Below are positions 2,341 to 59,840 of a stretch of DNA of 64,000 bases, in pieces. Every line of letters starts with the position of its first letter. Position 1 is the first letter of the stretch. Location: contig CADCBB010000001.1 of NCBI GenBank assembly GCA_902799555.1, positions 1,882 to 65,881 of the forward strand. Reading direction: 5' to 3'. Under the pieces are notes generated by a model. It ran no database searches. It had not been told where the DNA came from and saw only the letters and a list, made by a program, of their open reading frames with translations. This DNA comes from an uncultured Bacteroidales bacterium. GTDB lineage: Bacteria > Bacteroidota > Bacteroidia > Bacteroidales > Paludibacteraceae. Both the position numbers and the translations under genes were made by a program.

Positions 2341-3507
2341 TTATTTTTTGTAAAATTCAGCAATTGTATCGCAAACTCCGCGCGGATTTCGCAATAGAGG
2401 GCGGGTCGAATAGAAGCACTCGCCGGTGATTTCGGGGATAGTGCGATTGAGTTGCATTTGGCGGGAGATTTCGTTGCCTTGTCCCCAAGGATTCTTGGGA
2501 GACGCGTTCTCGAGACGGTATGGCGCCATGCCTATGTATAACTTGCAATTCGTACCGCGTACTTCATTTGCCCACCAATGCGCAAGGATCTCATAATCAG
2601 CGGCTTTCTTGCCGATCTCCCAATAGAGTTGAGGCAGCACGTAATCGATCCAGCCTCTCTTAATCCATAAGCGAATGTCTGCATAAAGGTCATCGTAATT
2701 GGTGATGCCGGCGGTAGTAGCGCTACCCGTTGAATCCACACTTGCATTGCGCCAAACGCCAAAAGGCGAGATACCGAATAGCACGTTTTTATTGCATTCA
2801 CGAATGGTACGATGGATATCCTGAATCGCCAAATTGACGTTATTCCTACGCCAATCGGCAATATTGTCAAATCCGCGCGGGTACTTGGCAAAAGTCCTGG
2901 TGTCCGGAATAGGCTTTCCTCCACTCGGGTAGGGATAGAAATAATCGTCCATATGAATGGCCTGAATGTCATACCGCAAGACGATATCTTGTACAATCGT
3001 ACAAATCCATTCGCGAGTTACGTCCAGTCCCGGATCAAAATACCACTGTTTATTGTACTCCCAGAACCACTCCCGATGCTTGCGCCACACATGGTCGGCA
3101 CAGATCATAGACGTATCCGTCTTTGCCAGATTCACTCGATACGGATTCAGCCATACATGCACCTCCATATTCCGCTTATGCGCCTCTCTAATGGTCCACT
3201 CCAACGGGTCCCAATAGAGCGTGCCTCCTTGCGTACCGACTAACCAATGACTTGTCGGTTCTAACTCACTGTAATACAGCGCGTCAGCCGTCGGTCTTAC
3301 TTGAAAAATAATGGCATTGATGCCTATTGCTTCTAGCGAGTCTAGCAGCCAAATCATCTCTTCTTTTTGCAGAGAATCATTGCCCACAGCCTCTACCGAC
3401 GGCCAATCGATATTGGCCACCGTCGCGATCCATGCTCCGCGAAAAGCAATCTCTGCATTAGCCGAGAGCGTCGCTAAAAGCAATAATATGAAATAAATCT
3501 TTTTCAA
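2341..3507 (-). CDS. Secreted GHL10-type glycosyl hydrolase-like protein (DUF187)
   Basis: A 388-residue exported protein with a Sec signal (KKIYFILLLLATLSANA) followed by a TIM-barrel-like GHL10/DUF187 domain: FRGAWIATVANIDWPS, then QVRPTADALY, WLNPYRV, HMDDYFYPYP and LPQLYWEIGK. Families of this type act on cell-envelope or polysaccharide glycans; the substrate here is unknown. The signal peptide begins directly at codon 2, so the start is TTG at 3507, and that TTG is part of an intergenic repeat word (GACGATTG). It is cotranscribed behind recF with a gap of 29 bp. Confidence 0.85.
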   Translation of the reverse strand: MKKIYFILLLLATLSANAEIAFRGAWIATVANIDWPSVEAVGNDSLQKEEMIWLLDSLEAIGINAIIFQVRPTADALYYSELEPTSHWLVGTQGGTLYWDPLEWTIREAHKRNMEVHVWLNPYRVNLAKTDTSMICADHVWRKHREWFWEYNKQWYFDPGLDVTREWICTIVQDIVLRYDIQAIHMDDYFYPYPSGGKPIPDTRTFAKYPRGFDNIADWRRNNVNLAIQDIHRTIRECNKNVLFGISPFGVWRNASVDSTGSATTAGITNYDDLYADIRLWIKRGWIDYVLPQLYWEIGKKAADYEILAHWWANEVRGTNCKLYIGMAPYRLENASPKNPWGQGNEISRQMQLNRTIPEITGECFYSTRPLLRNPRGVCDTIAEFYKK

Positions 3508-3550
3508 TCGTCAATCAATCGTACATCGTCAATCGTCTAATCGTCAATCC
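3505..3550. repeat. Degenerate tandem repeat (word AATCGTCAATC) spanning the recF end and GHL10 start
   Basis: Five to six imperfect copies of a 7-11 nt word (AATCGTC/ACATCGTC/CAATCGTC). On the coding strand it supplies the last RecF residues and stop codon (GRIDD*) and the TTG start of the hydrolase gene. The same word family recurs at 14905-14970. Confidence 0.85.
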
Positions 3551-4670
3551 TTCCATTTTCTACATGAAATATTTTGGCATTCTCATTCGGTTTCAGGATG
3601 TCGGTGAGGTGTTGCCTATCCGTGTCGGTAATAAAAATCTGCCCAAACTCGTCCCCTTGTACCATCTCCACGATTCGTTCTACGCGTTCACTGTCCAAAC
3701 GATCGAAGATATCGTCGAGCAACAAAATGGGCTTTGTTGCATTTACCATTTTGTCATTTATTTGGTCATTGGACCATTTGAATAAGTACAAAGCCTGTGC
3801 CAATTTCATCGCCAGAACAAAAGTGCGTTGTTGTCCTTGGCTGCCGACTTGCTTGAGGGGGTAGTCGCCCAACCGCATTTCCAAATCGTCCTTATGAATA
3901 CCCTGACTCGTCCATCCGAGTATCAGATCGCGTTGACGGGTCTTCACATATGCATCCTGTAAATCGCGTTCTTGCAGTTGGGACACATAGCGTAATTGCG
4001 GTAACTCATCGTGCATTTCGGTCGCATCATTGCGACCGGAGATAGCGTTGTAAGTCTTAGCAAAATACGGTTCAAAAGCCTCAAAAAACTCCGTTCTTGC
4101 TTTATAGATATACTCAGCCGGCTCAACCATCTGCCATTCCAAAACCTCCAGTAAATCGTGCGGCGGTTCAGGGCTATCGGCATATTGCTTCAATAATGCA
4201 TTTCGCTGTTTTAATAACGCATTGTATTTGGTCAAACAATCCAGATATCTGCGGTCCAACTGGCTGATGACAACGTCCATAAACCGCCGCCGTTCGTCCG
4301 AACCCTCATCGATCAACTGCTGGTCGCTCGGACTTATCATGACCAGCGGAATCAGCCCGATATGGTCAATGAGCCGCGGATAGTCTTTCTTGTCCTTGCG
4401 GAACTGCTTCTTGACGCCTCTTCTCAACCCGCAAGAAATCGTAAACTCCCCATAATTACCTTGCACAAGTGCCATCTCTTCGCCATGCGTGATATTGAGG
4501 CTATCTTGGCTCGTAAAGGCCGATTTGGCAAAACTTAGCAGATATATCGCGTCCAGAACGTTCGTCTTGCCTTGTCCGTTGAGGCCCACCAGGCAATTGA
4601 GTTTGGGGCTAAACTCCAAACTTGCCTCGCGGATATTACGGTAGTTTAATATGTTGAGCGACTTAAGCAT
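3537..4670 (-). CDS. recF: DNA replication and repair protein RecF
   Basis: A 377-residue SMC-like ATPase that binds DNA at gapped forks and helps RecOR load RecA. Walker A is GLNGQGKTN (about 30-38), the signature is VGSQGQQRTF, and Walker B is ILLLDDIFDRLD near the C-terminus. The start is placed at MLKSLNILNYRN; its ATG overlaps the stop of the upstream response regulator by 8 bp. The variable loop before Walker B contains a repeat-derived segment (KWSNDQINDKMVNAT), and the C-terminal GRIDD is also repeat-encoded. Otherwise the length and motifs are normal. Confidence 0.95.
   Translation of the reverse strand: MLKSLNILNYRNIREASLEFSPKLNCLVGLNGQGKTNVLDAIYLLSFAKSAFTSQDSLNITHGEEMALVQGNYGEFTISCGLRRGVKKQFRKDKKDYPRLIDHIGLIPLVMISPSDQQLIDEGSDERRRFMDVVISQLDRRYLDCLTKYNALLKQRNALLKQYADSPEPPHDLLEVLEWQMVEPAEYIYKARTEFFEAFEPYFAKTYNAISGRNDATEMHDELPQLRYVSQLQERDLQDAYVKTRQRDLILGWTSQGIHKDDLEMRLGDYPLKQVGSQGQQRTFVLAMKLAQALYLFKWSNDQINDKMVNATKPILLLDDIFDRLDSERVERIVEMVQGDEFGQIFITDTDRQHLTDILKPNENAKIFHVENGRIDD
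3731..3782. repeat. Repeat segment inserted in frame in recF
   Basis: The coding strand reads CAATGACCAAATAAATG and AAATGGTAAATG. Both blocks reappear, nearly identical, inside the ABC ATPase gene at 14500-14555. The segment encodes a surface-loop stretch (NDQINDKMVN) between the RecF signature and Walker B and keeps the frame. Confidence 0.8.
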
Positions 4671-5823
4671 ATAGATTGACGTCCTCAGCCGTAATTTTGT
4701 TTCCTGCAAGAATAATCAATCGCTCTACGACGTTCCGCAACTGCCGAATATTTCCTGTCCAATTCTTTGTTTGCAGCGCCTTAATTGCCTCTTTATCAAA
4801 GGTTTTGAGGGCGATACCTTGTTCGGCACAGATCTGCTCTGCGAAATAATCTACCAGTAACGGAATATCTTCTAATCGATCGTTTAATGCCGGTACGGCA
4901 ATAGGAATGACGTTGAGACGATGGAAGAGATCTTCGCGGAAATTACCTGCCTCGATCTCTTTCTGCAGATCTTTATTGGTCGCCGCCAATACGCGCACAT
5001 TCACCTTAATCGCCTTATCTGAACCGACACGTGTGATCTCCGATTCTTGCAACGCACGCAACACTTTCGTCTGTGCCGCCAGACTCATATCGCCTATCTC
5101 GTCTAAGAAAAGCGTACCGCCATCGGCCTGTTCGAACTTGCCTGCACGGTCCTTCACCGCGCCGGTGAACGAACCCTTCATATGGCCGAACAATTCGCTC
5201 TCAATCAATTCACTCGGGATCGCTGCGCAGTTCACCTCTACCATCGGACCGTTCGCACGCGCTGAGTTCTCGTGAATCATATGGGCCACCACCTCTTTAC
5301 CGGTACCGTTCGGACCGGTGATCAATACTCTTGCCTCCGTCGGAGCCACCTTATCTATTATTTCGCGTACGCGGGTGATAGCGGCTGACTCGCCGATCAT
5401 CTGCAAACCCTTAGCAGCCACTTTTTTTCGTAACTGCTTGGTCTCTTGCTTGAGGTTTTTACTCTCCAAAGCATTCTTGGTCGTAATCAATATCCGATTG
5501 AGATCCAATGGTTTAAGCAGAAAATCGTACGCCCCTATCTTCAATGCCTGAACGGCCGTCTCTACATCTCCATGACCGCTGATCATCACTACCGGCGTCT
5601 CGATCGCTTCTTCTCCGGACTTAAGTGCCGTAAGTAACTCAATACCATCCATCTCCGGCATTTTGATATCCGTGAAGATGAGGTCATAGGCCTTAGCCTG
5701 CGCCATCTCGAGGCCCTGCTTGCCGTTTTCGGCTACGTCTACTTCGTATCCCTCGTCCGCCAATATCTCTCGCAACGTATTGCGAATACCGCGTTCATCG
5801 TCAATTATCAGGATTTTTGCCAT
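4663..5823 (-). CDS. Sigma-54-type response regulator (NtrC family, no HTH domain)
   Basis: A 386-residue protein: receiver domain (about 1-120; acidic pocket DD at 8-9, phospho-acceptor Asp52 in FTDIKMPEMDG), linker, then an AAA+ sigma-54 activator domain (about 140-365) with GPNGTGKE (Walker A), ESELFGHMKGSFTGA (the sigma-54 contact loop, GSFTGA in place of the usual GAFTGA) and GGTLFLDEIGDM (Walker B). It ends shortly after NIRQLRNVVERL, so the C-terminal Fis-type DNA-binding helix-turn-helix is missing. The start is MAKILIID; an upstream ATG would translate the promoter. No histidine kinase partner is in the window. Confidence 0.92.
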   Translation of the reverse strand: MAKILIIDDERGIRNTLREILADEGYEVDVAENGKQGLEMAQAKAYDLIFTDIKMPEMDGIELLTALKSGEEAIETPVVMISGHGDVETAVQALKIGAYDFLLKPLDLNRILITTKNALESKNLKQETKQLRKKVAAKGLQMIGESAAITRVREIIDKVAPTEARVLITGPNGTGKEVVAHMIHENSARANGPMVEVNCAAIPSELIESELFGHMKGSFTGAVKDRAGKFEQADGGTLFLDEIGDMSLAAQTKVLRALQESEITRVGSDKAIKVNVRVLAATNKDLQKEIEAGNFREDLFHRLNVIPIAVPALNDRLEDIPLLVDYFAEQICAEQGIALKTFDKEAIKALQTKNWTGNIRQLRNVVERLIILAGNKITAEDVNLYA

Positions 5824-5852
5824 AAAATGCACTCGTTTTTTAAAAAACGCTG

Positions 5853-5900: not shown

Positions 5901-5988
5901 CACCGAAAATGTGAATTGACGATCAGTTTATGTTATTAAACATATTTAAACCCAATTTTTTATTTAACTAACTAAAATCATTATTACA

Positions 5989-9669: not shown

Positions 9670-9670
9670 T

Positions 9671-9706
9671 CGTCATCTCGTCATGACGTCATAACGTAAT
9701 AACGAA
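9671..9706. repeat. Degenerate repeat with CGTCATGACGTCATAACG words
   Basis: It lies in the tolC-adaptor gap and consists of imperfect copies of CGTCAT/GACGTCAT/AACGTAAT. The same family is seen at 10723, 16031, 31881, 41498, 53468 and 58527. Confidence 0.85.
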
Positions 9707-9717: not shown

Positions 9718-10722
9718 ATGAAAAAAACTATTCTTTATTCGCTTGCTGTGCTGGCATTGATTTCCTGCAGCAAGCAACAAGCAACAACAGAAGAGCAAGA
9801 ACGCGTTGAGCAGGTTCGTACGACCGTGCTCCAACCGCGTGAGATCGAGCGTGAGATCTCCGTCTCCACAAACCTCCAAGGCTACCTCACTCAGAACGTG
9901 GCCCCTTCTCTGACCGGTAAGATCGAGCATATCAACTGCGAGGTGGGTGATAAAGTTTCCCAAGGTCAGGCTTTGGTGACGATGGATCAGACCCAGTTCA
10001 AGACGACCAAGATCAGCCTTGCTAACCTCGAGACCGAGAAGAACCGTATTGAGCAACTGCTTAAGACCGGATCGGCTACTCAACAACAGTACGACCAAAT
10101 CTTGGCGCAGTATAACTCGACCAAAGAACAGCTGGATTTTCTGCAGATCAATACCTATGTCAAAGCGCCGTTCAGCGGTGTCATCTCGGCGAAGAACTAC
10201 GAGGATGGCGAACTCTATAGCGGTCAACCGATTCTGGTGCTGACCCAGATAGACAAACTCAAAGCGCTTGTAGCGATCCCGGAGGCGTACTTCCCGAAAT
10301 TCAAAGCCGGTATGAAACTGACCCTTACCTCGGAGATCTATCCCGATCAGGTCTTCCCGGCAACCGTAGAAGTCGTTTATCCGACCATTGACGCTACCAG
10401 CCATACCTTCCAGGTGAAGATCGTCATCCCCAACGGCAAGAACCTCTTGCGCCCGGGTATGTATGTCACGACCTCTCTCGGCCTGGGCAAAGCCAATACG
10501 ATCGTAGCTCCCTACCAAGCAGTAGAGAAACTTGTCGGTGCCAATGACCGCTATGTCTTCATCAACGATAACGGTCGTGCGAAACGCGTATCCGTAGAAC
10601 TCGGTCAGCGTTTTGACCAGGAGATCGAGATCATCTCGCCGGAGATCGTTCCCGGTGTAGAAATGGTCACCGTCGGCCAACACAAACTCGTCGATGGTGT
10701 TAAACTCAACGTAGTTGAATAA
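9718..10722 (+). CDS. RND efflux periplasmic adaptor (HlyD/AcrA family) lipoprotein
   Basis: A 334-residue lipoprotein (lipobox LALISC, Cys17) with the membrane-fusion layout: barrel-sandwich hybrid half (TNLQGYLTQNVAPSLTGKIE, then VGDKVSQGQALVTMD), a short coiled-coil hairpin (about 100-140), the second lipoyl half (YVKAPFSGVISAKNYEDGE), a beta-barrel and a membrane-proximal domain ending in KLVDGVKLNVVE. It bridges the TolC-like channel and the RND pump encoded either side. Confidence 0.92.
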   Translation: MKKTILYSLAVLALISCSKQQATTEEQERVEQVRTTVLQPREIEREISVSTNLQGYLTQNVAPSLTGKIEHINCEVGDKVSQGQALVTMDQTQFKTTKISLANLETEKNRIEQLLKTGSATQQQYDQILAQYNSTKEQLDFLQINTYVKAPFSGVISAKNYEDGELYSGQPILVLTQIDKLKALVAIPEAYFPKFKAGMKLTLTSEIYPDQVFPATVEVVYPTIDATSHTFQVKIVIPNGKNLLRPGMYVTTSLGLGKANTIVAPYQAVEKLVGANDRYVFINDNGRAKRVSVELGQRFDQEIEIISPEIVPGVEMVTVGQHKLVDGVKLNVVE

Positions 10723-10761
10723 TGTCGTCATAACGTCATGACGTCATAACGTAATAACGAA
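10723..10761. repeat. Degenerate repeat with CGTCATGACGTCATAACG words
   Basis: It starts directly after the adaptor stop codon and ends 8 bp before the RND gene. It is nearly the same sequence as 9671-9706, so two gaps of one operon carry the same word family. Confidence 0.85.
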
Positions 10762-14241: not shown

Positions 14242-14942
14242 TCGCTATCGAACATATCAACAAATCCTTCGGCGCACAACAGGTGCTCAAGGATATCAAC
14301 CTCGAGATCCCTGCCGGACAGGTATTAGGCCTTTTGGGCCCTAACGGCGCCGGCAAATCGACCTTGATGAAGATCCTTATCGGCCTATGGAAAGCTGATA
14401 GCGGATCGGTCTCCGTACCCTCCCGCATAGGCTATCTTCCGGAGAACAACCCGCTCTACGAAGAGATGTATGTCGCCGAGTACCTGCAGTTCATGGCCAA
14501 AATGACTCAATGTCCAAATAAATGGTACATGGTAAATGACCAAATGGTAAATGATCTCATCGACCGTGTCGGCCTGACGCCGGAGAAGCATAAGCACATC
14601 CGTGAACTCAGCAAAGGCTATCGTCAGCGTGTCGGTCTTGCGCAAGCCCTGCTTGGCGACCCCGAGTTGCTCATCCTCGATGAACCCACCACAGGTCTCG
14701 ATCCGAACCAACTCGTCGAGATCCGTGCCCTCATTAGAAATCTGGCCAAATCACCAATGACCAATGACAAATCACCAATGACAATTATATTGTCTACCCA
14801 TATCATGCAAGAAGTGCGCGAGATGTGTGACCGTGTCGTCATCCTCGATCACGGCCAAATCCGCGCCGATAAACCGATACATGAAATAAATGACTTGGAA
14901 GATTTATTTCATCAATCAACTCAATCGTCAATCAATCGTTAA
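14238..14942 (+). CDS. ABC transporter ATP-binding protein, GldA-like, no partner permease nearby
   Basis: A 234-residue nucleotide-binding subunit: Walker A GPNGAGKST, signature LSKGYRQRVGLAQAL, Walker B LLILDEPTTGLDP and ILSTHIMQEV, which are GldA-like. It is shorter than usual GldA (about 300 residues), lacking the C-terminal part. Two loops (KWYMVNDQMVND and KSPMTNDKSPMT) and the last residues (STQSSINR) are encoded by repeat words. Neither neighbour (PG0541, RuvB) is a permease, so its membrane partner must be elsewhere or it has another role. Confidence 0.85.
   Translation: MIAIEHINKSFGAQQVLKDINLEIPAGQVLGLLGPNGAGKSTLMKILIGLWKADSGSVSVPSRIGYLPENNPLYEEMYVAEYLQFMAKMTQCPNKWYMVNDQMVNDLIDRVGLTPEKHKHIRELSKGYRQRVGLAQALLGDPELLILDEPTTGLDPNQLVEIRALIRNLAKSPMTNDKSPMTIILSTHIMQEVREMCDRVVILDHGQIRADKPIHEINDLEDLFHQSTQSSINR
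14500..14555. repeat. Repeat segment inserted in frame in the ABC ATPase gene (site 1)
   Basis: Contains CAATGTCCAAATAAATG and two copies of a GGTAAATGA word. It is nearly the same as the recF insert at 3731-3782. It falls in the helical-domain loop before DLIDRVGLTP. Confidence 0.8.
14746..14786. repeat. Repeat segment inserted in frame in the ABC ATPase gene (site 2)
   Basis: Words of the form AATCACCAATGACC are repeated about three times. They encode AKSPMTNDKSPMT just before the ILSTHIMQ strand and add about eight residues relative to the usual loop. Confidence 0.75.
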
Positions 14943-14970
14943 ATCGTCAATCGTCCAATCGTCAATCATA
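14905..14970. repeat. Degenerate tandem repeat (AATCGTCAATC words) at the ATPase end/ruvB leader
   Basis: About six copies of AATCGTC/CAATCGTC words supply the ATPase C-terminus and stop codon, then fill the gap up to the ruvB start at 14973. It is the same family as 3505-3550. Confidence 0.85.
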
Positions 14971-16030: not shown

Positions 16031-16160
16031 CGTCGTGACGTAATGACGTCGTGACCTCATAACGTTGTGCCCTCATGACGTTCGTTTCTTACTGCGGGAT
16101 ATTATCCCGCTTTATGTTTATGTCCATTACGCCCGATTTTATCGGGCATCCTGTTCCTTC
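16031..16160. repeat. Mixed repeat block: CGTCATGACG words plus two perfect palindromes
   Basis: The left part (16031-16082) holds CGTCGTGACGTAATGACG-type words. The right part holds GCGGGAT-ATT-ATCCCGC and GCCCGAT-TTT-ATCGGGC, both with 7-bp stems and 3-nt loops but different stems. It sits just upstream of the DUF1016 promoter. Confidence 0.8.
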
Positions 16161-20104: not shown

Positions 20105-20335
20105 CCGAATAGGATTCGGACATTATATTTTCCAAACTACTCCGGGCATCTGCTCGGAGTTTTTCTTTCTCCCTTCCCGCCCGCATTTAAGCGGTTTTTC
20201 TTTCTTTGTATTACAGGCGGATAATATCCGCCGTTCTCTATGTCTATTGCCCGTGATATTATCGCGCTCACTTCGTCCATTGCGTTTGATACTATTCGGA
20301 CATCGGCTCTGCCGACCATTATTTACATAAAATCT
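20105..20335. repeat. Array of short palindromes with differing stems
   Basis: In order: TCCGAAT-AGG-ATTCGGA, CTCCGGGCA/TGCTCGGAG, CCGC/GCGG, GGCGGAT-AAT-ATCCGCC, an imperfect GTGATATTATCGCGC and TCGGC-TC-TGCCGA. Linkers such as TATGTCTATTGCCCG resemble TATGTCCATTACGCC at about 16119-16135, so this array and the 16 kb block are related. Confidence 0.75.
20140..20165 (+). terminator. Probable terminator after the lipoprotein gene
   Basis: A CTCCGGGCA/TGCTCGGAG stem with one mismatch is followed by five T. A second hairpin (CCGC/GCGG, 20181-20194) also ends in five T. Both belong to the palindrome array. Confidence 0.55.
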
Positions 20336-20398: not shown

Positions 20399-20490
20399 CA
20401 TAGCATAGTATGCGATTAGTATATTATTAGTATGTAAATAGTAGGTGATTAGTAGGTTGTTAGTAGGTGATTAGTAGGTTATAATAGGTA
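20399..20490. repeat. Degenerate tandem repeat (GATTAGTAGGT words)
   Basis: Seven to eight imperfect copies of an 11-nt word lie in the leader between promoter and start codon. Confidence 0.8.
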
Positions 20491-30150: not shown

Positions 30151-31114
30151 ACCAGTATAAAGTGTTGTTGGTTTGCCATTCTTCGTTCTCGCCCAAACCG
30201 ATATAGACACGTTTGCCGATCACGAAAGCGGTATGATTGCATAGACGTTTGGGTAGCACGGCTACATACTGCCAACGGTCAGATTGCGGATCGTAGCGCC
30301 GTACATCTTGCAGCACTTCGCCGCTGGTACCTCCGCCGTAATGAACACCTCCGGACAGATAGAGATAGTTCTTCGTTGCCGCTGAGGCTGCAAGCGTTCG
30401 TGTCGGACCGGGTACTTCAGCGCGTTTCTCCCAACGCGTACCATCTATCAGTTCTGCCCACCAGTTGAGGCTGTGTTGGAAATAACCCGTACCCATAAAA
30501 TGCCGTCCTTGACACGTACATCCCGTGCCGCCGAAAGAGCGGGTAGGGTATCCGTGAAAAGAGACGTTCACATCAATCGAATCCCAACGGTCTTGGGCTA
30601 TATCGTAGCGGAACATATCGCGACGGTAGTTCCAACAAAAACCATAGCCGACATACAATGCCCCATCGCCCACAAATGCCGTGGCATCGTCGGTGTAATG
30701 ATTCGGGTAGTCCGTTAAGCGTTTCCATGTATTTGTTGCCGGCGTATATTCCCACCAATCTCTTAAATACGAACTGTCCCGACCGTGTTTGCCGTTAAAG
30801 CCCAGGCCCAAATATACCTTTCCGTCCTTTACACACGATGTCGGGTTAACACGCTCGCTCATAGGAGCCTCGCCAATACTGTCCCACGTATCTGTAGTTG
30901 TATCATATCGCCATAGGTCATTCAGATGCTTTCCTGCACTGTCACGACCGGCAAAGAAATACGCATGGTCATCTATTACGAAAGAAGCAGCACATGCGCG
31001 CGGAGAAGGCATCGCCGCACTCTGGTGCCACGTCACGTTCATCTCCGGCTCATTCTTGCAAGCTACCAATAAAGCGGCGGTGAGAAATACTATGAAAAAC
31101 CTTTCATTTTTCAC
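30140..31114 (-). CDS. Kelch-repeat lipoprotein
   Basis: A 324-residue lipoprotein (lipobox ALLVAC) with five to six Kelch beta-propeller repeats (AYFFAGRDSAGKHLNDLWRY, YDTTTDTWDSI, YTPATNTWKRL, YDPQSDRWQYV). It probably binds protein or glycan at the envelope. The reading frame opens at GTG 31114, which is itself part of a GTGAAAA repeat; no in-frame ATG precedes the signal peptide. Ten bases separate it from lptB. Confidence 0.85.
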   Translation of the reverse strand: MKNERFFIVFLTAALLVACKNEPEMNVTWHQSAAMPSPRACAASFVIDDHAYFFAGRDSAGKHLNDLWRYDTTTDTWDSIGEAPMSERVNPTSCVKDGKVYLGLGFNGKHGRDSSYLRDWWEYTPATNTWKRLTDYPNHYTDDATAFVGDGALYVGYGFCWNYRRDMFRYDIAQDRWDSIDVNVSFHGYPTRSFGGTGCTCQGRHFMGTGYFQHSLNWWAELIDGTRWEKRAEVPGPTRTLAASAATKNYLYLSGGVHYGGGTSGEVLQDVRRYDPQSDRWQYVAVLPKRLCNHTAFVIGKRVYIGLGENEEWQTNNTLYWFEE

Positions 31115-31128
31115 TTTTCACTTTTCAA
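31100..31128. repeat. GTGAAAA tandem repeat at the lptB/Kelch junction
   Basis: On the coding strand TTGAAAAGTGAAAAGTGAAA then AATGAAAGG. It covers the lptB stop and provides the GTG start of the Kelch lipoprotein. Confidence 0.75.
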
Positions 31129-31880: not shown

Positions 31881-31920
31881 CTTCGTTATAACGTCATTAC
31901 GTAATTACGTCATTACGATA
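31881..31920. repeat. CGTTATAACGTCATTACG repeat between xth and lptB
   Basis: Imperfect words of the CGTCAT/TAACG family fill the 44-bp gap and reach into the 3' end of the xth gene (tail residues VMVVLS). Confidence 0.8.
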
Positions 31921-32674: not shown

Positions 32675-34218
32675 AAACGATTTCCTAAGATGTCAAATTT
32701 CAGACCTTCACGGAGAATAACCACTCTGCCGTTCTCAATGATCTTCTGCGTCTTGACATCAGCCTGCTTAATGGATTCAACATCCAGTAGGAGCGCCTGA
32801 CCGCCGCCGTTCACGTTAAAGGTGACGATGCGGTTCTCCATGTCGATATTGGTGATCTGGTAGTCCGCCACCTTGGTGAACTCGGTCGCACCGTAGGGGT
32901 AGAGGTCGGTCGCCTTGTCATTGTAGCTCGATGAGTTGGGCGTCGCCTCAATGATATCTACGCCCAGTTTGTTGCTGGTATTGTTCACCGTGTTGTTGGC
33001 CCATTTCGTTTTGCTCCACTGCACTTTGGTGATCATCATACCGCTGCTCTTTATGTACGCGTCCCATCCCTTTTTCTGGCGGTTTTCCAGCAGATAGAAG
33101 GTGGAAGGAAGCGGCAATAATATGTCGCTGATACCTTGTCCGCTCTCGGTGATGAGGCAGGCCGCCTTGCTATCTTGGAGCGCGGGTAGGGTCACGGAGC
33201 AGGCTGTGTTGAGCAAGGTCGGCTCGATCCAGCCCATGAACCAGCGCTCGTAGGCCGAATAGTTGGGCGGCGTGTTGCCGTTGTTGTTATAGGGTCCATA
33301 GTCCATGATATCCCAACTGCCTAAGGTGCGGTGGGAGGCTTGGTTGGTGGCATAGAAATCAGGCAGTCCCATGACATGGCTGAACTCATGGCAGAACGTA
33401 CCGATACCGCAACGCTTGCTGCTACTGCCGTCTATCTCGTTCAGGCAGCAGTAGTGATCTACCGTCTTGCCGTCTAACTTGAACGACATACCCATATAAC
33501 TGAGGTCGTACTGGTGAGGCCAGATGGTGCTCGATGAACCTCCGTCCGCTTCTCCTTTGCCTGCATATAAAATCACAACCCAATCTACCTTTCCGTCTCC
33601 GTCGCTATCATATTGACTGAAGTCTGCGCCACAACTGTCGTGCGCCAGTTTGCAGGCCTCTACTATCAGTTCGTCAGGATGCTGGTCATCTCCGTTCCAA
33701 TCATTGGATCCGTAGTAAGAAGCGTTTTGGCTCACCGTTACCGGACCATACACATCAATATGCAGGTCGTACTTACCCCAACTCTGATCATAGAAATACT
33801 GGTGAATAGAACCCGTGGCGCCATTATACGTATAATTGTCGCCCATCGCCCATTCGGTCATGGCTTCATTCGTTTGTTTGAAAGCCAGATCTTTATAGCT
33901 CACCAGAATAACCGCACCACGCGGAGCCAGAAGGCGATCGGTTCCTGTCTCCTCTTTCGCACGACGAACTTTTGCTTTCGACTTTCGACTTTCGACTTTC
34001 GACTGTTTCACTTCTTCGCTCATCGGCATCAGCGTCTCTTCATCCAACCAAGTGCCGTTTTCATCCGTCATGTAGTGAAACGACTCGTTTCCATGCAGGA
34101 ACACGATTTTCTCATTTCCGTTGGCATCTGTCCGGACTATGCCATCACGGCGTGCCGGTACTGCTATCGCACTCACTGCGACAGCGCATAGCATTACTAT
34201 GCCCACTAATTTCTTCAT
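32671..34218 (-). CDS. Secreted M6-family metalloprotease with C-terminal tail
   Basis: A 515-residue protein: signal peptide (to about 20, ending AIAVPARR), N-terminal prodomain (about 20-70), then an M6 catalytic domain (about 95-350). The zinc site is [12 protein letters not shown] (HExxHxxGxxD), and SWDIMDYG gives the Met-turn-like region. The final 25 residues ([19 protein letters not shown], then ILGNRL) are the tail shared with five other secreted proteins. A Lys/Ser/Arg linker (about 71-86) is encoded by a GTCGAAA repeat. A stand-alone prodomain homologue is encoded just upstream. Confidence 0.9.
33970..34012. repeat. GTCGAAA tandem repeat inside the M6 protease gene
   Basis: On the coding strand AGTCGAAAGTCGAAAGTCG and onward, about five 7-nt copies. 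It encodes [13 protein letters not shown] between prodomain and catalytic domain; 7-nt copies cycle the frame, so copy number changes other than by three would break the gene. Confidence 0.85.
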
Positions 34219-36244: not shown

Positions 36245-36298
36245 GTGCAAGTACTATGCAAGTACTGGGCAAGTACTATGTAAGTACTATGCAATAAT
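36245..36298. repeat. AGTACT-containing 11-nt tandem repeat
   Basis: Four to five copies of CAAGTACTATG-type words directly follow the stop of the secreted protein gene and precede its terminator. Confidence 0.8.
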
Positions 36299-41073: not shown

Positions 41074-41537
41074 TGAAGATCGAAAATGACATATTGATTC
41101 CAGAATTGGCGCGTTTGCTGAGCGAAGGTAAGGAGGTGCGTTTTACACCTGCCGGCGTCAGTATGCGGCCTTTCATAGAGGGAGATAAAGACAGCGTTAT
41201 CTTGGCGCCGCTGAATCGTGCGCCGCAAAGAGGCGATATTCTTCTAGCGCAAGTGCAGACGCTCTGCGGCAGAACGACCTATGTGCTGCACCGACTCATT
41301 CGGATTGAAGGCGAGCAGTTGATCTTGATGGGAGATGGCAATCTGGTAGGTACGGAAGTATGTTCTCGCGGCGATGTGATCGGTGTAGTTACGCGTATTG
41401 AATCGCCCAAAGGGCGCCGCAAAATGCTGACCCGCGGCTATCTCTGGTACGCTTTGCGGCCGGTTAGAAAATGGTTATTAAAGATATATAGAAAAATCGT
41501 TTTACCGTTATTACGTTATAACGTTATAACGAAATAA
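41073..41537 (+). CDS. S24/S26-type peptidase-like protein
   Basis: A 154-residue protein resembling signal peptidase/LexA-type peptidases: candidate nucleophile Ser30 in PAGVSMRPF and His73 in YVLHRLIRIEG, followed by LILMGDGN. Ser-His rather than Ser-Lys resembles the S26B type. There is no N-terminal signal and only a weakly hydrophobic C-terminus. The last dozen residues (LPLLRYNVITK) are encoded by the intergenic repeat word family. It is paired with a PqqD-like gene 11 bp downstream, a recurring association in Bacteroidales. Substrate unknown. Confidence 0.75.
   Translation: MKIENDILIPELARLLSEGKEVRFTPAGVSMRPFIEGDKDSVILAPLNRAPQRGDILLAQVQTLCGRTTYVLHRLIRIEGEQLILMGDGNLVGTEVCSRGDVIGVVTRIESPKGRRKMLTRGYLWYALRPVRKWLLKIYRKIVLPLLRYNVITK
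41498..41533. repeat. CGTTATAACG repeat forming the C-terminus of the S26-type peptidase
   Basis: Imperfect 10-11 nt words (CGTTATTA/CGTTATAA/CGTTATAACG) are read in frame as LLRYNVITK before the stop. The same family occurs as untranslated spacer elsewhere. Confidence 0.8.
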
Positions 41538-52425: not shown

Positions 52426-53496
52426 TTATCGGAGATGTTTCGCCCAGCGGCGAAGATAGGTTAACCACTCCTCAGCAGTTGTTGCTACGGGGTGGTTTTC
52501 TTTTGTGGCGCCGCAACAGGTGAGATAGAAGTGTGCTGACGCACACATTTGTGATTTGTGATTTCTATCGATCGGCAGAGCCGTGGTGATTTGTGATTTT
52601 AGGAGGCAGAGGAGATTCTGTTTATCGCGGACGATGTCGCCGGCATAAGGATAGGGAATGAAAACAGCGAGGCCGACGGTCTCTTTGGCGTACTTGGCTG
52701 AGTCATTGACCGGCCAATCGGTACCAAATGATGCCAAAAGGACACCATTTGGTAATTGGAGATTGAAGATTGAAGATTGGAGATTTTCGCCTTTAGCCGG
52801 AATGGTTTGGACGCCGGTACAAAGGCCTTCTACCGGCTCGCTGAGGCTGACGTCGCAACGCATATCACGATGACCGGCCTGCATGGTATAGCGGGTGGTG
52901 AAGTCGACTGGTCGACTGGTCTTCTGGTCTTCCGGAAGGATGGGTGTCCAGCCTTTGACAGCGACCTCTATGGTAGCTTGGTCCTTTTTCTGCGAAACGA
53001 TCCGTTGGGAGCGTTCGGAGACGGGTTCGATATGCACATGTTTCTTGCCGTTCCAATACTTGACAGAACCGACACCTACGGTGCCGGAGACGCGTAATAT
53101 ATCATCGCCGTAACCGAGTGCGAGGAGAGAGTCGTTGGGATACCAATGACTTTGAGCTAACTCTAACTGCGGTTTTTTCTTGCAATAGGGATCAATGGTT
53201 TGCTTCTTATCGAAATAGATACGATAGGCCATGAGTTCGGACTCTACCGCTACACCATGATGATGAAGTTGGTGGTAGGTGTCGCCTTTTCCGACATAGT
53301 TAGGCATCGTATCCGTCCATTCGTTGATGGGATAGCAATGACGGACTTTCGCGCCTTCGGTGAGGATGGCGTAGCCTTCTCTAAGCGAATCGGCGGGTGT
53401 GCCGATTCGCCAGAAAGAGGTAGCTACCCGCGGCTGGCAAGCCGCGAGTAGGACTCCTAAAAGAAGCGTTATGACGAGATGTCGAGATGACGACAT
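52426..53496 (-). CDS. DUF4861-family lipoprotein (pectin utilisation context)
   Basis: A 356-residue lipoprotein (lipobox VLLAAC) with DUF4861 features: WRIGTPADSLREGYAIL, YHQLHHHGVAVESELMAYRI, KTIDPYCKKKPQLEL-like region, YGDDILRVSGTVGVGSVKYW. The family is found with pectin-degrading enzymes; a GH28 gene lies immediately upstream. It is unusually rich in repeat-derived sequence: the first residues (MSSSRHLVIT) and three internal segments (DQKTSRPVDF, ENLQSSIFNLQLPNG, KSQITTALPIDRNHKSQM) are encoded by intergenic-type repeat words, all in frame. Confidence 0.8.
   Translation of the reverse strand: MSSSRHLVITLLLGVLLAACQPRVATSFWRIGTPADSLREGYAILTEGAKVRHCYPINEWTDTMPNYVGKGDTYHQLHHHGVAVESELMAYRIYFDKKQTIDPYCKKKPQLELAQSHWYPNDSLLALGYGDDILRVSGTVGVGSVKYWNGKKHVHIEPVSERSQRIVSQKKDQATIEVAVKGWTPILPEDQKTSRPVDFTTRYTMQAGHRDMRCDVSLSEPVEGLCTGVQTIPAKGENLQSSIFNLQLPNGVLLASFGTDWPVNDSAKYAKETVGLAVFIPYPYAGDIVRDKQNLLCLLKSQITTALPIDRNHKSQMCASAHFYLTCCGATKENHPVATTAEEWLTYLRRWAKHLR
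52525..52600. repeat. AAATCAC repeat with CGGC-AGA-GCCG hairpin in the DUF4861 gene
   Basis: On the coding strand two AAATCACAAATCAC-type runs flank a CGGCTCTGCCG palindrome. A TCGGCTCTGCCGA palindrome also occurs in the 20.3 kb array. Read in frame. Confidence 0.75.
52741..52790. repeat. AATCTTCAATCTTC repeat in the DUF4861 gene
   Basis: The coding strand holds AATCTCCAATCTTCAATCTT then CCAATTACCAAATGG words, read as LQSSIFNLQLPNG. Confidence 0.78.
52901..52937. repeat. AGACCAGTCGACCAG repeat in the DUF4861 gene
   Basis: The coding strand holds AGACCAGAAGACCAGTCGAC then CAGTCGAC, read as EDQKTSRPVD between two conserved strands. Confidence 0.65.
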
Positions 53497-53502
53497 GACG
53501 AC
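53468..53502. repeat. CGTCATCTCGTCATAACG repeat forming the DUF4861 start
   Basis: It covers the ATG and the first ten codons, so the n-region of the signal peptide (MSSSRHLVIT) is repeat-encoded. Closely similar to 9671-9706. Confidence 0.8.
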
Positions 53503-55047: not shown

Positions 55048-55793
55048 AAGTATATGTTTTTAGGATAAATGATTTCTACTAAACTGAGACCCTCTGCAGG
55101 TGCCGAATGACCGGCTTGGCAGCGATTGAGGGACGCAATGACCTCACCGAACTGTGTAGTAGTCATCTTATGTTTGCCTACTTCGAAGAGTGTCCCGACA
55201 ACGGCACGAACCATGTTGCGCAAGAAGCGATCGGCAGTAATGACGAAATAGGCTTCGGTCTCGGACTCTTGGATCCATCTCGCTTCCCGTACATCGCAGA
55301 TTGTGGTCTTGACATCGGTGTGCGTGCGGCAGAAAGAGGCAAAGTCTTGTTTGCCTAACAGCTGTTTTGCGGCTTCATTCATAGCATCGAAGTCTAAGCC
55401 TTTCGCTACGCGCGTGTGGTTGATATAGATGAACGGATCTTTGCGAGTTGTGATACGATAGTAATAGGTGCGTGCCGTAGCATCAAAACGTGCGTGGGCC
55501 TCATCGGTCACACGATAGAGGTCAATGATGGCGATAGAGTCGGGCAACAAACCGTTGAGACGGTTTTGTAATTGGTGATTGGTAATTGGTAATTGGTCGA
55601 TATCGAAATGTGCTACCATCTTCTCGGCATGTACGCCGGCGTCCGTGCGACCGGCGAAAGTAAGGGATACGGGCTGACGGAGAATGGTAGCGAAAGCCGC
55701 TTCCATCTCAGCCTGAACCGTATTTCCGTTCGGTTGCGTCTGCGAGCCGTGGAAGTCGGTACCTCTATATGAGAAGGTTATAAAATAGCGCAT
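55035..55793 (-). CDS. truA: tRNA pseudouridine(38-40) synthase TruA
   Basis: A 252-residue tRNA modification enzyme: FSYRGTDFHGSQTQPNGNTV, catalytic Asp in LTFAGRTDAGVHAEKMVAHF, TYYYRITTRKDPF and VRAVVGTLFEVGK. Complete. A loop after AHFDID (QLPITNHQLQNRLN) is encoded by a CCAATTACC repeat and replaces family residues at about the same length. It overlaps the upstream flippase gene by 16 bp and the downstream GH28 gene by 13 bp. Confidence 0.95.
   Translation of the reverse strand: MRYFITFSYRGTDFHGSQTQPNGNTVQAEMEAAFATILRQPVSLTFAGRTDAGVHAEKMVAHFDIDQLPITNHQLQNRLNGLLPDSIAIIDLYRVTDEAHARFDATARTYYYRITTRKDPFIYINHTRVAKGLDFDAMNEAAKQLLGKQDFASFCRTHTDVKTTICDVREARWIQESETEAYFVITADRFLRNMVRAVVGTLFEVGKHKMTTTQFGEVIASLNRCQAGHSAPAEGLSLVEIIYPKNIYLCEN
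55566..55600. repeat. CCAATTACCAATTACC repeat inside truA
   Basis: Four to five copies of an ACCAATT/ACCAATC 7-8 nt word are read in frame as DQLPITNHQLQ. Confidence 0.8.
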
Positions 55794-57265
55794 ATCTGTT
55801 GATTTATTTCCGGTGAGAGTTTGGTTTTATATGCTATGAGCGCGCCTCCGCCGATAAGGATAAAGGTACGTAAGAGGCTATCGAGCCATATATTCATGGA
55901 TGGCATGTAGATCAACCAACATTGGTTGATCGCAAAGAGAGCTACGAGGAGCAAGAAGATACACCACCAATTCTTATCTACTACATGGAAATGACCGAGC
56001 GGTACAACCGTGATAATAGTCAAGGCCATATACAATCCATACGACAGCAGGTTACTTAACGCGGCTCCTTGCATGCCGTAGAGCGGCACGAGGTAGTTAT
56101 TAAGCAGTAAGGCACTGACGGTAAGAATAACCGATAGAAGCAGACTGAAGGCGAAGAAACGACTGTAGTTCAATGCCGTCAGACAGATAGAGAACGTCCC
56201 CAAAATCAATTGGCTGACGCCCAAGATGAGTACCACATCTTTCGCTTGTGCGAAAGTAGTACCGTTAGGCAAAATATGGAAGATAAGGTCAATATTGACC
56301 CAAATAATTAACAATATAAACCCGCCGATAAGGAGCATGTTTCGCGTCACTTGGCGAATGAGGAAACTGCACTCTGCGCTATTTTGTTCTTTGATGGCGC
56401 GTGCTAATTGCGGCGAAGCGATAGCGGCAACCGAACGATTCGGTACGCTGACCATAACGGCCATGTACGTTGCAATCGCGAAGATACCGGTACTGTCCAG
56501 ACCCATCTTGGCAGTTACAAAGAACGACGAGAGGGTCGGTGCCAAAACCGAAGTGACGGCCGAGAGAATGAGGAAACCGGTGTATATCAGGTAACGACGA
56601 ATCAGTTGAGGATTCGCGCGAAGGAATGTCCAATCGGGACGTAGGTTGATCTTTTGGAGTGAGAAGAAGTAGCACAGATTGATCAATGCGGCTACTGCAT
56701 AATTGATGCATATACCAATGACCAAACCATCCATGGAGATAACGCGGAAAGCGTATAGAAGATAGATGGCTAATAAGCCGACACGTACAACCAATTCGCG
56801 TACGGCACGAGGAACCACGATATGCATCAGCACATTACAGGTCGATTCGCATATCGTCTGATAAAGCATAAAGAAAGCAAGCGGCAGTACGAAATAATAG
56901 TACTCCACAAAGAGCGGCGACTTATCGCCAAACCATGCGCCCAGCGGTACGCGGCATGCCCAATAGATGAGCGCAAAGAGGATAAAACCGATAAACGGTA
57001 CGACCAATGCCCAGAAGAAGAAGCCATGGTCTTCGTGGCTGTCTTTTTCCTTGAAATAGGGATAGAAGCGAATGATCGAAGCGTTGGTGCCTAACTGGGC
57101 GAGACCGATAAAGAGCATCGCAGCATCGATAAGCACTCGTGCCAACCCGATTTCCTCGGTTGTGAGGAAACGGGTTAACACGAAGAACGTGGTGACAACG
57201 CCTACGGCGATGCCAAGATAGGTAACGATTGTACCACGAATCGATTGCTTAGCGATGACGCCCAT
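55778..57265 (-). CDS. Polysaccharide flippase/polymerisation membrane protein (MATE/Wzx type)
   Basis: A 495-residue membrane protein with about 14 helices. IRGTIVTYLGIAVGVVTTFF and LTTEEIGLARVLIDAAMLFIG at the N-terminus match lipopolysaccharide/polysaccharide flippases. It probably exports lipid-linked oligosaccharide. The start codon abuts the stop of the FKBP lipoprotein gene. It is a second flippase, distinct from the one at 59804. Confidence 0.88.
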   Translation of the reverse strand: MGVIAKQSIRGTIVTYLGIAVGVVTTFFVLTRFLTTEEIGLARVLIDAAMLFIGLAQLGTNASIIRFYPYFKEKDSHEDHGFFFWALVVPFIGFILFALIYWACRVPLGAWFGDKSPLFVEYYYFVLPLAFFMLYQTICESTCNVLMHIVVPRAVRELVVRVGLLAIYLLYAFRVISMDGLVIGICINYAVAALINLCYFFSLQKINLRPDWTFLRANPQLIRRYLIYTGFLILSAVTSVLAPTLSSFFVTAKMGLDSTGIFAIATYMAVMVSVPNRSVAAIASPQLARAIKEQNSAECSFLIRQVTRNMLLIGGFILLIIWVNIDLIFHILPNGTTFAQAKDVVLILGVSQLILGTFSICLTALNYSRFFAFSLLLSVILTVSALLLNNYLVPLYGMQGAALSNLLSYGLYMALTIITVVPLGHFHVVDKNWWCIFLLLVALFAINQCWLIYMPSMNIWLDSLLRTFILIGGGALIAYKTKLSPEINQQICAIL

Positions 57266-58510
57266 TTACTTAATGTCTAAGAGTTCAACCGTGAAGATGA
57301 GGGCTGCGTAAGGTGGGATCGATTGACCGGCACCACGCTCACCGTAACCGAGGTTGTACGGAATGTACAGTTTGTATTTCGAACCAACCGACATCAGTTG
57401 AAGACCTTCGGTCCAACCCTTGATGACACCATTGAGCGGGAACTCGATGGGTTCGCCACGTTGGTAACTGCTATCGAAGACCGTACCATCGATGAGGGTT
57501 CCTTCATAGTGTACCTTAACGGTTTGTTCTGCGGTCGGTTTCGGACCTTTGCCTTCTACCAATACTTCGTATTGCAGACCTGACTCGGTTACTTTGACTT
57601 CGTCGCGGAGGGCATTCTCTTGCAAGAACTTCTCGCCTTCTGCTTTGGCAGCACCGTATTTCTTTTCTGCAATAACGCCTTCCACATACTGACCTGCAGA
57701 TTGCATATCCATCTGCTCGGTGTAGTTGTTCAGACCGTTGATGAAGCCTTGTTTAATAAGGTCGTAGTTGGTCTCGAGACCCTCGACGCCCAGCAGGCCT
57801 ACGGGTTCTTGTTCACGAATGGAACGACCGATCGTTTGAGCGGTATTAACCAATTGCGGGTTGCGGATATTCTCCTTCATACCAATGATGACATTATCGA
57901 TGAATTCTTTGGTGTCTTCACCCGTCGAGTCTTCTGCCAAGAGATATGAAGCAATCTGCGTTCCGTTCGCAAAACCGAAAGCATAGTTGAGGGTGTCGAT
58001 CGCGTCTTTGAGTTCAATGGCTTTCGCTTTGGTCGGACATTTAGCGGTAACAGTCTTGCCTTCCGGAACCTCTTTCTGACCTTGGAAATAGGAGATAACC
58101 AGCGGTTCAGCCTCGTCCATGGTCATGATAGAGGTGTCTTTGTAGAGTCCGTTTACAAAACCTTGCAGCAAGGCTTTCTCGTTCAGCGTCCACTCTTTGC
58201 GTTCAGCGAGACCTTTGGTCTCAAAACCCTTGAAAGCAGAACCGATCTGACGACCTTCGCGTTGGATATCGTTCAATTCCTCTTCCTTATCCAGATAAGC
58301 TTTATCCATAGCGTCGATGAACTCAGCTACCGTCTCCTCGCTACTATCGTTGGAGAGGAAGTACATCTTGATCTGCAGACCGTTGATCAAACCGATTGCA
58401 TAGTTGATCGAGTCGGTCTCATTAGTCAAAGTGGCATCTTGTGCCTTATAACTATTGCCGCACGAGATGAGAGCTACGGCGGCTAAAAGAATAATTGATA
58501 ATTTTTTCAT
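57266..58510 (-). CDS. FKBP-type peptidyl-prolyl isomerase lipoprotein with duplicated N-domain
   Basis: A 414-residue lipoprotein (lipobox AVALISC). Two FKBP_N helical dimerisation domains (about 30-150 and 165-285; [20 protein letters not shown] and [20 protein letters not shown]) precede one FKBP catalytic domain (about 300-414: [44 protein letters not shown]). It folds envelope proteins in the periplasm. The internal duplication of the N-domain is clear, since single-copy FKBP_N is usual. A 53-bp repeat-bearing gap separates it from the next FKBP gene. Confidence 0.93.
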
Positions 58511-58526
58511 TGTGATTATTGATTTT

Positions 58527-58563
58527 TCGTTATGTCGTTATTACGTCATGACGTCATGACGAA
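58527..58563. repeat. CGTCATGACGTCATGACG repeat between the two FKBP genes
   Basis: Imperfect words of the CGTTAT/CGTCAT family. It ends at the stop codon of the downstream-numbered FKBP gene. Confidence 0.82.
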
Positions 58564-59148
58564 TTACTCTATTCCTAATAGTTCTACCGTGAAGATGAGG
58601 GCGGCGTAGGGCGGGATCGATTGACCGGCTCCGCGCTCCCCATAAGCGAGTTGATACGGGATGAAGAACTTGTACTTCGAGCCGATCGACATGAGTTGCA
58701 GACCTTCGGTCCAACCGGCGATAACACCATTCAACGGGAAGGTGATTGACTCACCGCGACGGTAACTGCTGTCGAAGACCGTACCATCGATGAGGGTGCC
58801 TTCGTAATGAACACGTACCGTGTCGGTAGCTTTCGGTTTCTGACCCAGCGAAGGTTCGAGAATCTCATACTGCAAACCGCTAGCGGTTACTTTTACGCCT
58901 TCGCGTTTGGCGTTCTCAGCGAGGAATTTCTCGCCTTCTGCTTTAGCAGCGCCTGCTACTTTCGCTTCCAACTCCTGGAAGAACTGATTCAATACTTGTT
59001 GTGCCTCTTGATAGCTGATCTTCGGTTGCTGATGTGTCAGCACATCCTCGATGCCTAATGCGAGATCCTGATAGTTCAGTTTCTCTACACCGCTACCCAT
59101 GAGGTTTTGTCCCATAGAGAGACCTAATGCATAACTGATTTTGTCCAT
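58564..59148 (-). CDS. FKBP-type peptidyl-prolyl isomerase, cytoplasmic (FklB/FkpA type)
   Basis: A 194-residue protein with FKBP_N (1-85; MDKISYALGLSMGQNLMGSG) and a catalytic FKBP domain (about 95-194) almost identical to that of the neighbouring lipoprotein ([33 protein letters not shown]). There is no signal peptide. The pair is a tandem duplication with one copy exported. Eight bases separate it from riboflavin synthase. Confidence 0.93.
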   Translation of the reverse strand: MDKISYALGLSMGQNLMGSGVEKLNYQDLALGIEDVLTHQQPKISYQEAQQVLNQFFQELEAKVAGAAKAEGEKFLAENAKREGVKVTASGLQYEILEPSLGQKPKATDTVRVHYEGTLIDGTVFDSSYRRGESITFPLNGVIAGWTEGLQLMSIGSKYKFFIPYQLAYGERGAGQSIPPYAALIFTVELLGIE

Positions 59149-59156
59149 TTTATTTG

Positions 59157-59780
59157 TTATTTTTGATTTAATATTGCTGCATAACGGCTGAGGTATTTGC
59201 CGAGGATATCAAACTCGATATTCACGACCGTACCTACTTTGATATATTTGAAATTGGTGTTCTCTTCGGTGTACGGAATGATACAAACGGATACGTAGCC
59301 TTTGTTGCCTTGTATGTCGGGCTCACAAACGGTCAGACTGACGCCGTTGATGGTAACTGAACCCTTATCCACGCAGAAATAACCGCGTTCGATCATCTCG
59401 CGGGACGAGTCGTACTCAAAACGGTAGTACCAACTGCCGTCGGTTTCTTTGGCCTCGATGCAGGTGGCTTTCTGGTCTACATGTCCTTGCACGATATGTC
59501 CGTCCAGACGTCCGCCCATCAGCATGGAACGCTCTACGTTGACATAGTCACCGACCTTAAGCAGGTCAAGGTTCGTCAGACGAAGCGTCTCTTGCATGGC
59601 GGTGACCGTATAAAGGTCACCATCTATCTTCACTACTGTCAGGCACACACCGTTATGCGCGATCGATTGATCGATGCTAAGGGCTTCGCCAAACGGGTTG
59701 CGAAGGGTGAAATGTTTATTGGTTTGCTCGGTCTCAATTTGAACGACCTGAGCCATTGTTTCTACGATTCCTGAGAACAT
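59157..59780 (-). CDS. ribE: Riboflavin synthase, alpha chain
   Basis: A 207-residue enzyme that dismutates two 6,7-dimethyl-8-ribityllumazines to riboflavin. It starts MFSGIVETMAQV and contains two lumazine-binding barrels (about 1-95 and 96-200): AHNGVCLTVV, GGRLDGHIVQGHVD and INGVSLTVC. Complete. It lies in a housekeeping minus-strand run. Confidence 0.95.
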   Translation of the reverse strand: MFSGIVETMAQVVQIETEQTNKHFTLRNPFGEALSIDQSIAHNGVCLTVVKIDGDLYTVTAMQETLRLTNLDLLKVGDYVNVERSMLMGGRLDGHIVQGHVDQKATCIEAKETDGSWYYRFEYDSSREMIERGYFCVDKGSVTINGVSLTVCEPDIQGNKGYVSVCIIPYTEENTNFKYIKVGTVVNIEFDILGKYLSRYAAILNQK

Positions 59781-59785
59781 AAAAC

Positions 59786-59840
59786 TATTTACGATTTACA
59801 AATTTACGATGTACGATTTATTTTACGATTTACGATTTGG
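59786..59840. repeat. ACGATTTACGATTT repeat at the flippase 3' end
   Basis: Six to seven copies of TACGATT/TACAAATT words fill the 23-bp gap and encode the flippase C-terminus (TQIVNRKINRTS*). The same words reappear at 63980-64000. Confidence 0.82.

Follow-up and report, generated by a model that had tools for sequence, protein, structure and literature searches.

Short tandem-word arrays of period 7, 8 or 11 are dispersed as units, swapped between sister species and carried in frame within genes of a rumen Paludibacteraceae-like bacterium

Cyanobacterial genomes carry short tandemly repeated repetitive (STRR) sequences and small dispersed repeats, that is, degenerate heptamers in several families and very small dispersed units. 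Rickettsia palindromic elements, palindromes of 100 to 150 nt, sit in frame at tolerated places in protein genes, and short-patch double illegitimate recombination in Acinetobacter, a rare and generic process, replaces genome sequence with short heterologous segments and leaves clustered substitutions. Tandem heptamers have been reported as TAACTGA repeats from marine Beggiatoaceae, cyanobacteria and five Bacteroidetes, two of the sets lying in Paludibacter propionicigenes (PMC4679880), and as GGGAATC-type repeats from Xanthomonas and Nostoc (PMC4692102). Here, we examined a 64,000-nt stretch, hereafter the window (contig CADCBB010000001.1, positions 1,882 to 65,881), of an uncultured Bacteroidales bacterium whose 2.34-Mb genome (82 contigs) has rumen Bacteroidales and Paludibacteraceae metagenome-assembled genomes (MAGs) as its nearest named relatives. 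Tandem arrays of period 7, 8 or 11, usually in about four copies, are scattered over this genome.

These arrays share with the cyanobacterial repeats their degenerate heptamers in several families and very small dispersed units; to our knowledge, neither in-frame placement within genes nor word swaps between sister species have been described for the latter. Like Rickettsia palindromic elements, they are small repeated elements in frame in protein genes, although here they are direct-repeat arrays of 30 to 60 nt with changing words. The clustered substitutions resemble those left by Acinetobacter short-patch recombination, which here would be concentrated on tandem arrays. As described in PMC4679880, TAACTGA heptamers are directly repeated in junctions, immediately ahead of start codons and for the most part in the same orientation, and close strains differ by 7-nt length steps, all of which recurs here. 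That system, however, has one fixed word, related words being rare, and its 169 sets are mostly intergenic, whereas the present arrays have many words, occur also at periods 8 and 11, lie in frame within conserved genes and are swapped for other words between sisters. The GGGAATC-type repeats, according to PMC4692102, are likewise tandem heptamers of mostly four units at fixed intergenic places, where closely related species differ strongly in length and sequence, but have one G-rich word and a proposed quadruplex role; here, the words are A-rich and varied, and many of the arrays are coding. Our literature coverage was partial and yielded no account of such arrays in this lineage. Single-word heptamer arrays are thus already known, and the multi-word, in-gene, swapping form looks new.

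Arrays were scored by self-alignment in a genome sample of 464 kb (the window plus 20 stretches of 20 kb) out of 2339 kb. At a score of at least 16, there were 43 arrays at lag 7, 15 at lag 8 and seven at lag 11, with three at lag 9, 14, 4 and 6 at the multiples 14, 16 and 22, and zero at lags 4 to 6, 10, 12 and 13. One order-3 Markov resample of this sample gave zero arrays at every lag from 4 to 25, so 7-nt tandem units are over-represented relative to chance. At a score of at least 14, the window itself held four, seven and two arrays at lags 7, 8 and 11. No array arose in 40 codon shuffles; in 40 synonymous-codon shuffles, the maximum was one at lag 7, and lags 8 and 11 stayed empty. Repeat words are therefore not a chance product of codon-shuffled sequence, the outcome that the initial annotation had named as counting against it, and chance or codon bias as the source of the arrays was ruled out by the Markov, codon and synonymous shuffles. 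Across 1.39 Mb of the genus, with each array put at its best lag, 125 arrays had period 7, 33 period 8, 20 period 11 and eight period 9; none had period 10 or 13. Copy number was stereotyped, with medians of 4.4, 4.25 and 3.5 for periods 7, 8 and 11. Array lengths at a score of at least 10 peaked at 30 to 32 nt (period 7) and 35 nt (period 8), separate from a chance-like peak of shortest matches at score 8. No one word was dominant, as 89 arrays fell into 58 period-word types. For an exact octamer pattern of two units, the window's genome gave 14 forward and nine reverse matches, against zero for the backward control; by eye, octamer words such as TGACGTCA are self-complementary.

Arrays run throughout the genus and are nearly absent in the other Bacteroidales sampled. 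In close relatives, 53 loci (943 kb) held 96 arrays at lag 7, 21 at lag 8 and 14 at lag 11. In distant Bacteroidales, 27 loci (386 kb) held three, all heptamers and all in one stretch (L125) from a MAG labelled Paludibacteraceae, and a second outgroup set (20 stretches, 303 kb) held just two, a heptamer and an octamer array in L276. The sampled distant Bacteroidales were without the recF and ABC ATPase inserts discussed below, so that the other outcome named by the initial annotation as counting against it was not seen either. L125 has TAACTCC as its dominant word and carries heptamer arrays at 3358-3414, 5035-5068, 8893-8932 and 20193-20225, a one-word pattern that resembles the published single-word systems. 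Viral contigs contained the core pattern of family B (see below) in no case and the octamer pattern in one contig of 7.7 kb.

Two array families are dispersed as whole units. Family A (query 14500-14553) had 17 matches in its own genome and family B (14909-14967, also 3504-3549) had 19, in each case including the query and with some matches partial or overlapping; two congeners gave 44 and 38 matches to this region. Because both families keep a conserved irregular layout, with a sharp right end, at unrelated loci of the same genome, the array units must be copied. Compared by eye, A and B have a common layout, with GG and CG swapped in most words. Among the 19 rows of family B, nine lie at co-directional junctions and six deep in called open reading frames (ORFs), one place being counted twice; two rows of the listing repeat counted places (L169 = L168; L190 = L183). 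Family B is thus a repeated element found in frame within unrelated protein genes, and the same elements act as spacer and as coding sequence, which bears out what the initial annotation had proposed. Word sharing among heptamer arrays at different sites of one genome likewise exceeds expectation: 29 of 320 pairs have the same word, against a mean of 12.3 when words are shuffled, and 1 of 2000 shuffles reached that number.

We compared the window with its sister species (G061, the genome of L071), in which 19 of 21 window sites were comparable. Four sites had the same array and two the same family in changed form, one of them exactly 8 nt shorter; at the remaining 13, the array was replaced, missing or altered beyond recognition between flanks of 77 to 98% identity. 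In 13 species pairs, counting the arrays of either member gave a total of 126, of which 36 faced the same array, 10 the same word in changed form, 28 another word and 52 none, so that 80 of the 126 had turned over. Period and word change together between sisters. Length differences of whole units (7, 8 and 11 nt) also occur, accounting for only four of the 10 same-word entries, with more found in other sister comparisons. Congeners had empty sites and many different words at two junctions, those of rsmI (44 rows) and truA (54 rows). The active process suggested by the initial annotation is thus supported by sister species that differ at most sites. Of the two modes it had offered, growth of a retained word is a minor one, seen in the 10 same-word entries, and classical transposition was not demonstrated; predominantly, the second species carries a different word or no array at all, as in the 80 turned-over cases.

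Substitutions are concentrated in the roughly 30 nt next to replaced arrays and only there. Flanks were compared ungapped, and those with apparent indels were set aside. Divergence of the 130 flanks of turned-over arrays fell from bin to bin over the first 48 nt (35, 20, 16, 9, 7 and 6%) and was 4 to 5% farther out, while 60 flanks of shared arrays (2.5 to 6%) and 1403 flanks of random points (5 to 7%) showed no divergence gradient; the unfiltered comparison gave a similar picture. Such clustering around a replaced patch is what short-patch illegitimate recombination leaves. At the clearest site, in the ABC ATPase gene, a heptamer array with the words AATGACC/AATCACC (14749..14782, plus strand) is present in the window and missing in the sister. 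Here, the outer flanks are 96 and 98% identical, and the adjoining 18 nt to the left and 15 nt to the right differ at 17 of 33 bases, with the same residue kept in eight of 11 codons. These rewritten codons were seen in none of the other 19 congener sequences displayed. Among 38 strongly diverged flanks, both alleles recurred in other species in five, one allele in eight and neither in 25, six of which had no third species for comparison.

ORF calls from a simple script put 14 of 23 octamer arrays of the window's genome sample at co-directional junctions, typically from a stop to just before the next start, and 22 of 50 heptamer arrays deep in called ORFs, so heptamers are not mostly intergenic. 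None of the periods 7, 8 and 11 is a multiple of three, so the word alone settles the state of all three reading frames, and stop-free words persist in genes because a word is open in all frames or, with at least three copies, in none. Consistent with such a frame filter, 55 of 66 in-gene heptamer arrays were open in all three sense frames and 30 were closed in all three antisense frames, compared with 360 and nine of 999 random in-gene 31-mers, and 80 of 118 junction heptamer arrays were closed in all three sense frames. The excess of A on the sense strand at junctions is ordinary, array-free junctions being biased 124 to 33. Deep in-gene heptamer arrays are biased 47 to 10, above the baseline of 1567 to 1255, an excess that the stop filter can explain. 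The sense-strand preference is therefore largely a matter of ordinary junction composition and the stop-codon filter, and we dropped this bias as a sign of an RNA step.

We favor, at roughly even odds (a probability of about 0.5), ectopic short-patch replacement of tandem-word elements together with slippage, filtered by reading frame. The elements would be units of 30 to 60 nt with about four copies of a 7-, 8- or 11-nt word. In each event, a short non-allelic patch, an array stretch copied from elsewhere in the genome or occasionally perhaps from another species, would supplant a short target stretch and leave extra substitutions over about 30 nt on each side, and whole-unit slippage would afterwards lengthen or shorten the array. 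Insertion is assumed to be blind to genes, with survivors in stop-to-start junctions, protein loops or termini. The replacement may proceed by short single-stranded fragments annealed via periodic A-rich microhomology, probably at replication forks. Patch replacement would account for the dispersal, the swaps and the clustered substitutions. Several points weigh against it. No single event was matched to a donor array, and octamer and 11-mer words are shared within the genome without excess (2 of 40 and 0 of 14 pairs). The 0 to 6 nt next to an array may hold unrecognized array ends, which would exaggerate the gradient where it is steepest. In 24% of the 80 turned-over cases, compared with 7% for other words, the other species' site contains the array word in exact copy, and local birth may explain this minority. 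When heptamer arrays of the same length are swapped, their words tend to agree in register, at 4.1 of 7 positions against 1.8 in 140 records or, with each word pair counted once, at 3.9 against 2.0 in 25 pairs, the register match being best in 16 of the 25, and some of these swaps may be step-wise homogenization; heptamer arrays of unequal length, anchored at the right, show no register match (2.7 versus 2.5). Finally, the model leaves both the set of periods and the copy number of about four unexplained.

Replication slippage alone would have a local word grow by slips of 7, 8 or 11 nt, the slip size perhaps being set by the polymerase footprint, an idea quoted for heptamers in PMC4692102, and would change words by homogenization of units. 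The whole-unit differences between sisters, the local word copies and the similarity in register of some swapped words speak for it, but we consider it doubtful as the sole process: families A and B have their common irregular layout at many unrelated loci, 76% of turned-over sites have no exact word copy in the other species, and word and period switch together. Exchange of array alleles between species by short-patch homologous recombination appears very unlikely. It is in keeping with the recurrence of both alleles in five of the 38 strongly diverged flanks and with an array ahead of rsmI that is common to L092 and L109, the sisters of both being different there, but neither allele recurs in the 25 flanks noted above, and, fitting only five of 38, exchange was rejected as the sole cause. 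Functional regulatory sites under selection, such as translation leaders or protein-binding arrays, are the most improbable of the explanations considered. Many arrays lie just ahead of start codons with a stereotyped copy number; against this, many congeners are array-free at the rsmI and truA junctions, words vary freely between sisters, deep in-gene arrays code for variable segments, the A-rich sense bias at junctions resembles that of array-free ones, and no Rfam family reached its gathering score in the window.

Two further explanations invoke an enzyme. The sharp right end of the copied units would suit a miniature element mobilized by a transposase, such as a REP-like one that depends on a REP-associated tyrosine transposase; REP-transposase-like proteins do occur in the genus (four match NF047646, below its cut-off), and in L200 and L201 such a gene is followed closely by one and the same 11-mer tandem word. 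We nevertheless judge this unlikely, since Y1_Tnp-like matches were found in just 16 of 37 congeners and were mostly weak, array density near eight such loci was not raised (five arrays in 28.1 kb versus 0.248 per kb), the gene in the window's own genome is adjoined by palindromic repeats of another kind, and, judged by eye, neither family A nor family B looks palindromic. As searched, the link to REP transposases is not genus-wide and may apply to 11-mers only. That own-genome gene (L199, 1352-2344) encodes a REP-associated-tyrosine-transposase-like protein with a C-terminal extension, and the several palindromic repeats of GTCGGATATCATCCGAC type downstream, to 2520, look like its REP elements. 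Because patch replacement leaves periods and copy number unexplained, the arrays might instead come from a dedicated writer, for example a template-carrying polymerase or a reverse transcriptase, which would produce about four copies at a set period. The quantized periods and the stereotyped copy number would suit it; still, it is quite unlikely, as the PF00078 reverse-transcriptase domain, the sole enzyme searched for here, was found in eight of 37 congeners and was missing from several that are at least 95% complete. A reverse transcriptase was accordingly rejected as the array maker, not being common to the array-bearing genomes. More broadly and only tentatively, a lineage-specific DNA-writing activity might set arrays of about four copies and period 7, 8 or 11 chromosome-wide and, in a single event, overwrite an existing array with a new word, in which case intercistronic spacers, protein loops and even N-terminal signal-like segments would be continually re-authored. 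Loss of repair genes was rejected as a cause: MutS1 (above its cut-off), RecJ (plus one partial match) and the exonuclease VII (ExoVII) large subunit were each found in 35 of 37 congeners, and those without a match are incomplete genomes. In most congeners, the ExoVII large subunit gave two overlapping model matches and often looks shorter than in other families.

Within the window, the repeats listed in the initial annotation were present at or within a few bases of the positions given there, although the pattern is broader than it had described, and Pfam supported the gene names recF, ABC ATPase, M6 peptidase, DUF4861 and truA. Its placement of arrays inside genes held for recF, ABC ATPase (three sites, the third over the stop codon), M6 peptidase, DUF4861 (four sites, one at the start) and truA; two others, at 41506-41531 and 59787-59838, lie at the C-terminal end of their ORFs. 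In orthologue alignments, the in-gene sites fall, as it had suggested, in variable loops or termini, and orthologues of recF, the ABC ATPase, truA and DUF4861 are empty there or carry other words. A family B element (3504..3549, plus strand) occupies the junction of ORF 2341-3507 (minus strand) with recF and covers the last recF codons, antisense to both genes; the sister has a different heptamer array there. A family A-like array (3745..3775, minus strand) is in frame in recF ahead of KPILLLDD, where the visible alignment block shows inserts of varied sequence and short outgroups, and the sister version is a simpler heptamer array, 8 nt shorter. In the ABC ATPase, which we take to resemble GldA, the orthologue alignment shows all three array sites. 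The family A element (14500..14553, plus strand) is in frame and has the same array in the sister, though not in most other congeners; the site at 14749 is described above; and the family B element (14909..14967, plus strand), which spans the gene end with its stop codon and the spacer before ruvB, is identical in the sister.

The DUF4861 gene holds four arrays on the minus strand. Relatives numbered 42, 37 of which were put into an alignment of 38 sequences that showed several hypervariable segments separated by invariant blocks. A short heptamer array, AAATCAC (52547..52564), has another repeat in its place in the sister; a heptamer array, AATCTCC/AATCTTC (52755..52785), is the same in the sister and replaced by other words or none in other congeners; an octamer array (52903..52932) is matched in congeners by other repeat families or none; and another octamer array (53471..53502) provides the start codon and N-terminal segment, with a CCTAGGA-type array in the sister. 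On a predicted structure of moderate confidence (mean pLDDT 64.8), the arrays map to a loop (184-196), a low-confidence segment (303-318), a loop and the next strand (about 236-249) and the N-terminal helix. The array-coded N-terminal segment is signal-peptide-like, and its words differ between species. The truA array (CCAATTA heptamers, 55568..55597, minus strand) is the same in the sister; its segment is 6 nt longer than in nine displayed relatives without an array and is variable in length in the wider alignment. In the M6 peptidase gene, the GTCGAAA heptamer array (33975..34004, minus strand) is strongly changed in the sister, with 6 nt added.

Octamer arrays fill stop-to-start junctions at 9670..9704 (plus strand; CG(TCATRACG)x4-type, same family but changed in the sister), 10722..10759 (plus strand; sister copy 8 nt shorter), 31884..31917 (minus strand; heptamer array in the sister) and 58527..58561 (minus strand; the same in L072, heptamers and a palindromic repeat in the sister). 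A degenerate octamer array lies 3' of ruvB (16031..16081, plus strand), and another occupies the 3' end of ORF 41052-41537 (41506..41531, plus strand), where the sister has a palindromic repeat; this ORF, labelled an S26 peptidase, had no Pfam match at E <= 0.01. A dispersed palindromic repeat, CGAGTGTAAG..GCTTAC.., occupies junctions that hold octamer arrays in the window and was seen in L265 (about 6907) and L266 of the sister species and in L071 and L085 before the gene at window 58510. Window stretches 57265-57655 and 58563-58953 each cross-match, at 73 to 75% identity, the sister stretch belonging to the other, which suggests that they are neighboring paralogous gene segments. An 11-mer array (20405..20479, plus strand) is intergenic and has a near-identical 70-nt copy elsewhere in the genome (L048). 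At two junctions, an AAAAGTG heptamer array (31102..31127, minus strand) and an 11-mer array (36246..36294, strand not assigned) have no array in the sister, nor has the family B-like array across the 3' end of the flippase gene (59787..59838, minus strand).

If the reading of patch replacement with slippage is correct, a whole genus actively swaps patches of 30 to 60 nt, including coding ones in recF, truA and the ABC ATPase, at a pace visible between sister species. Such swapping would be a source of in-frame diversity in loops and termini without a dedicated target, and would make testable why heptamer arrays, often of about four copies, recur in unrelated bacteria. It would also be a warning that gene alignments from these rumen bacteria can contain non-homologous inserts. 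Word swaps in gaps and in conserved genes, with the genes left unbroken, would amount to an unusual way of rewriting small patches of a genome.

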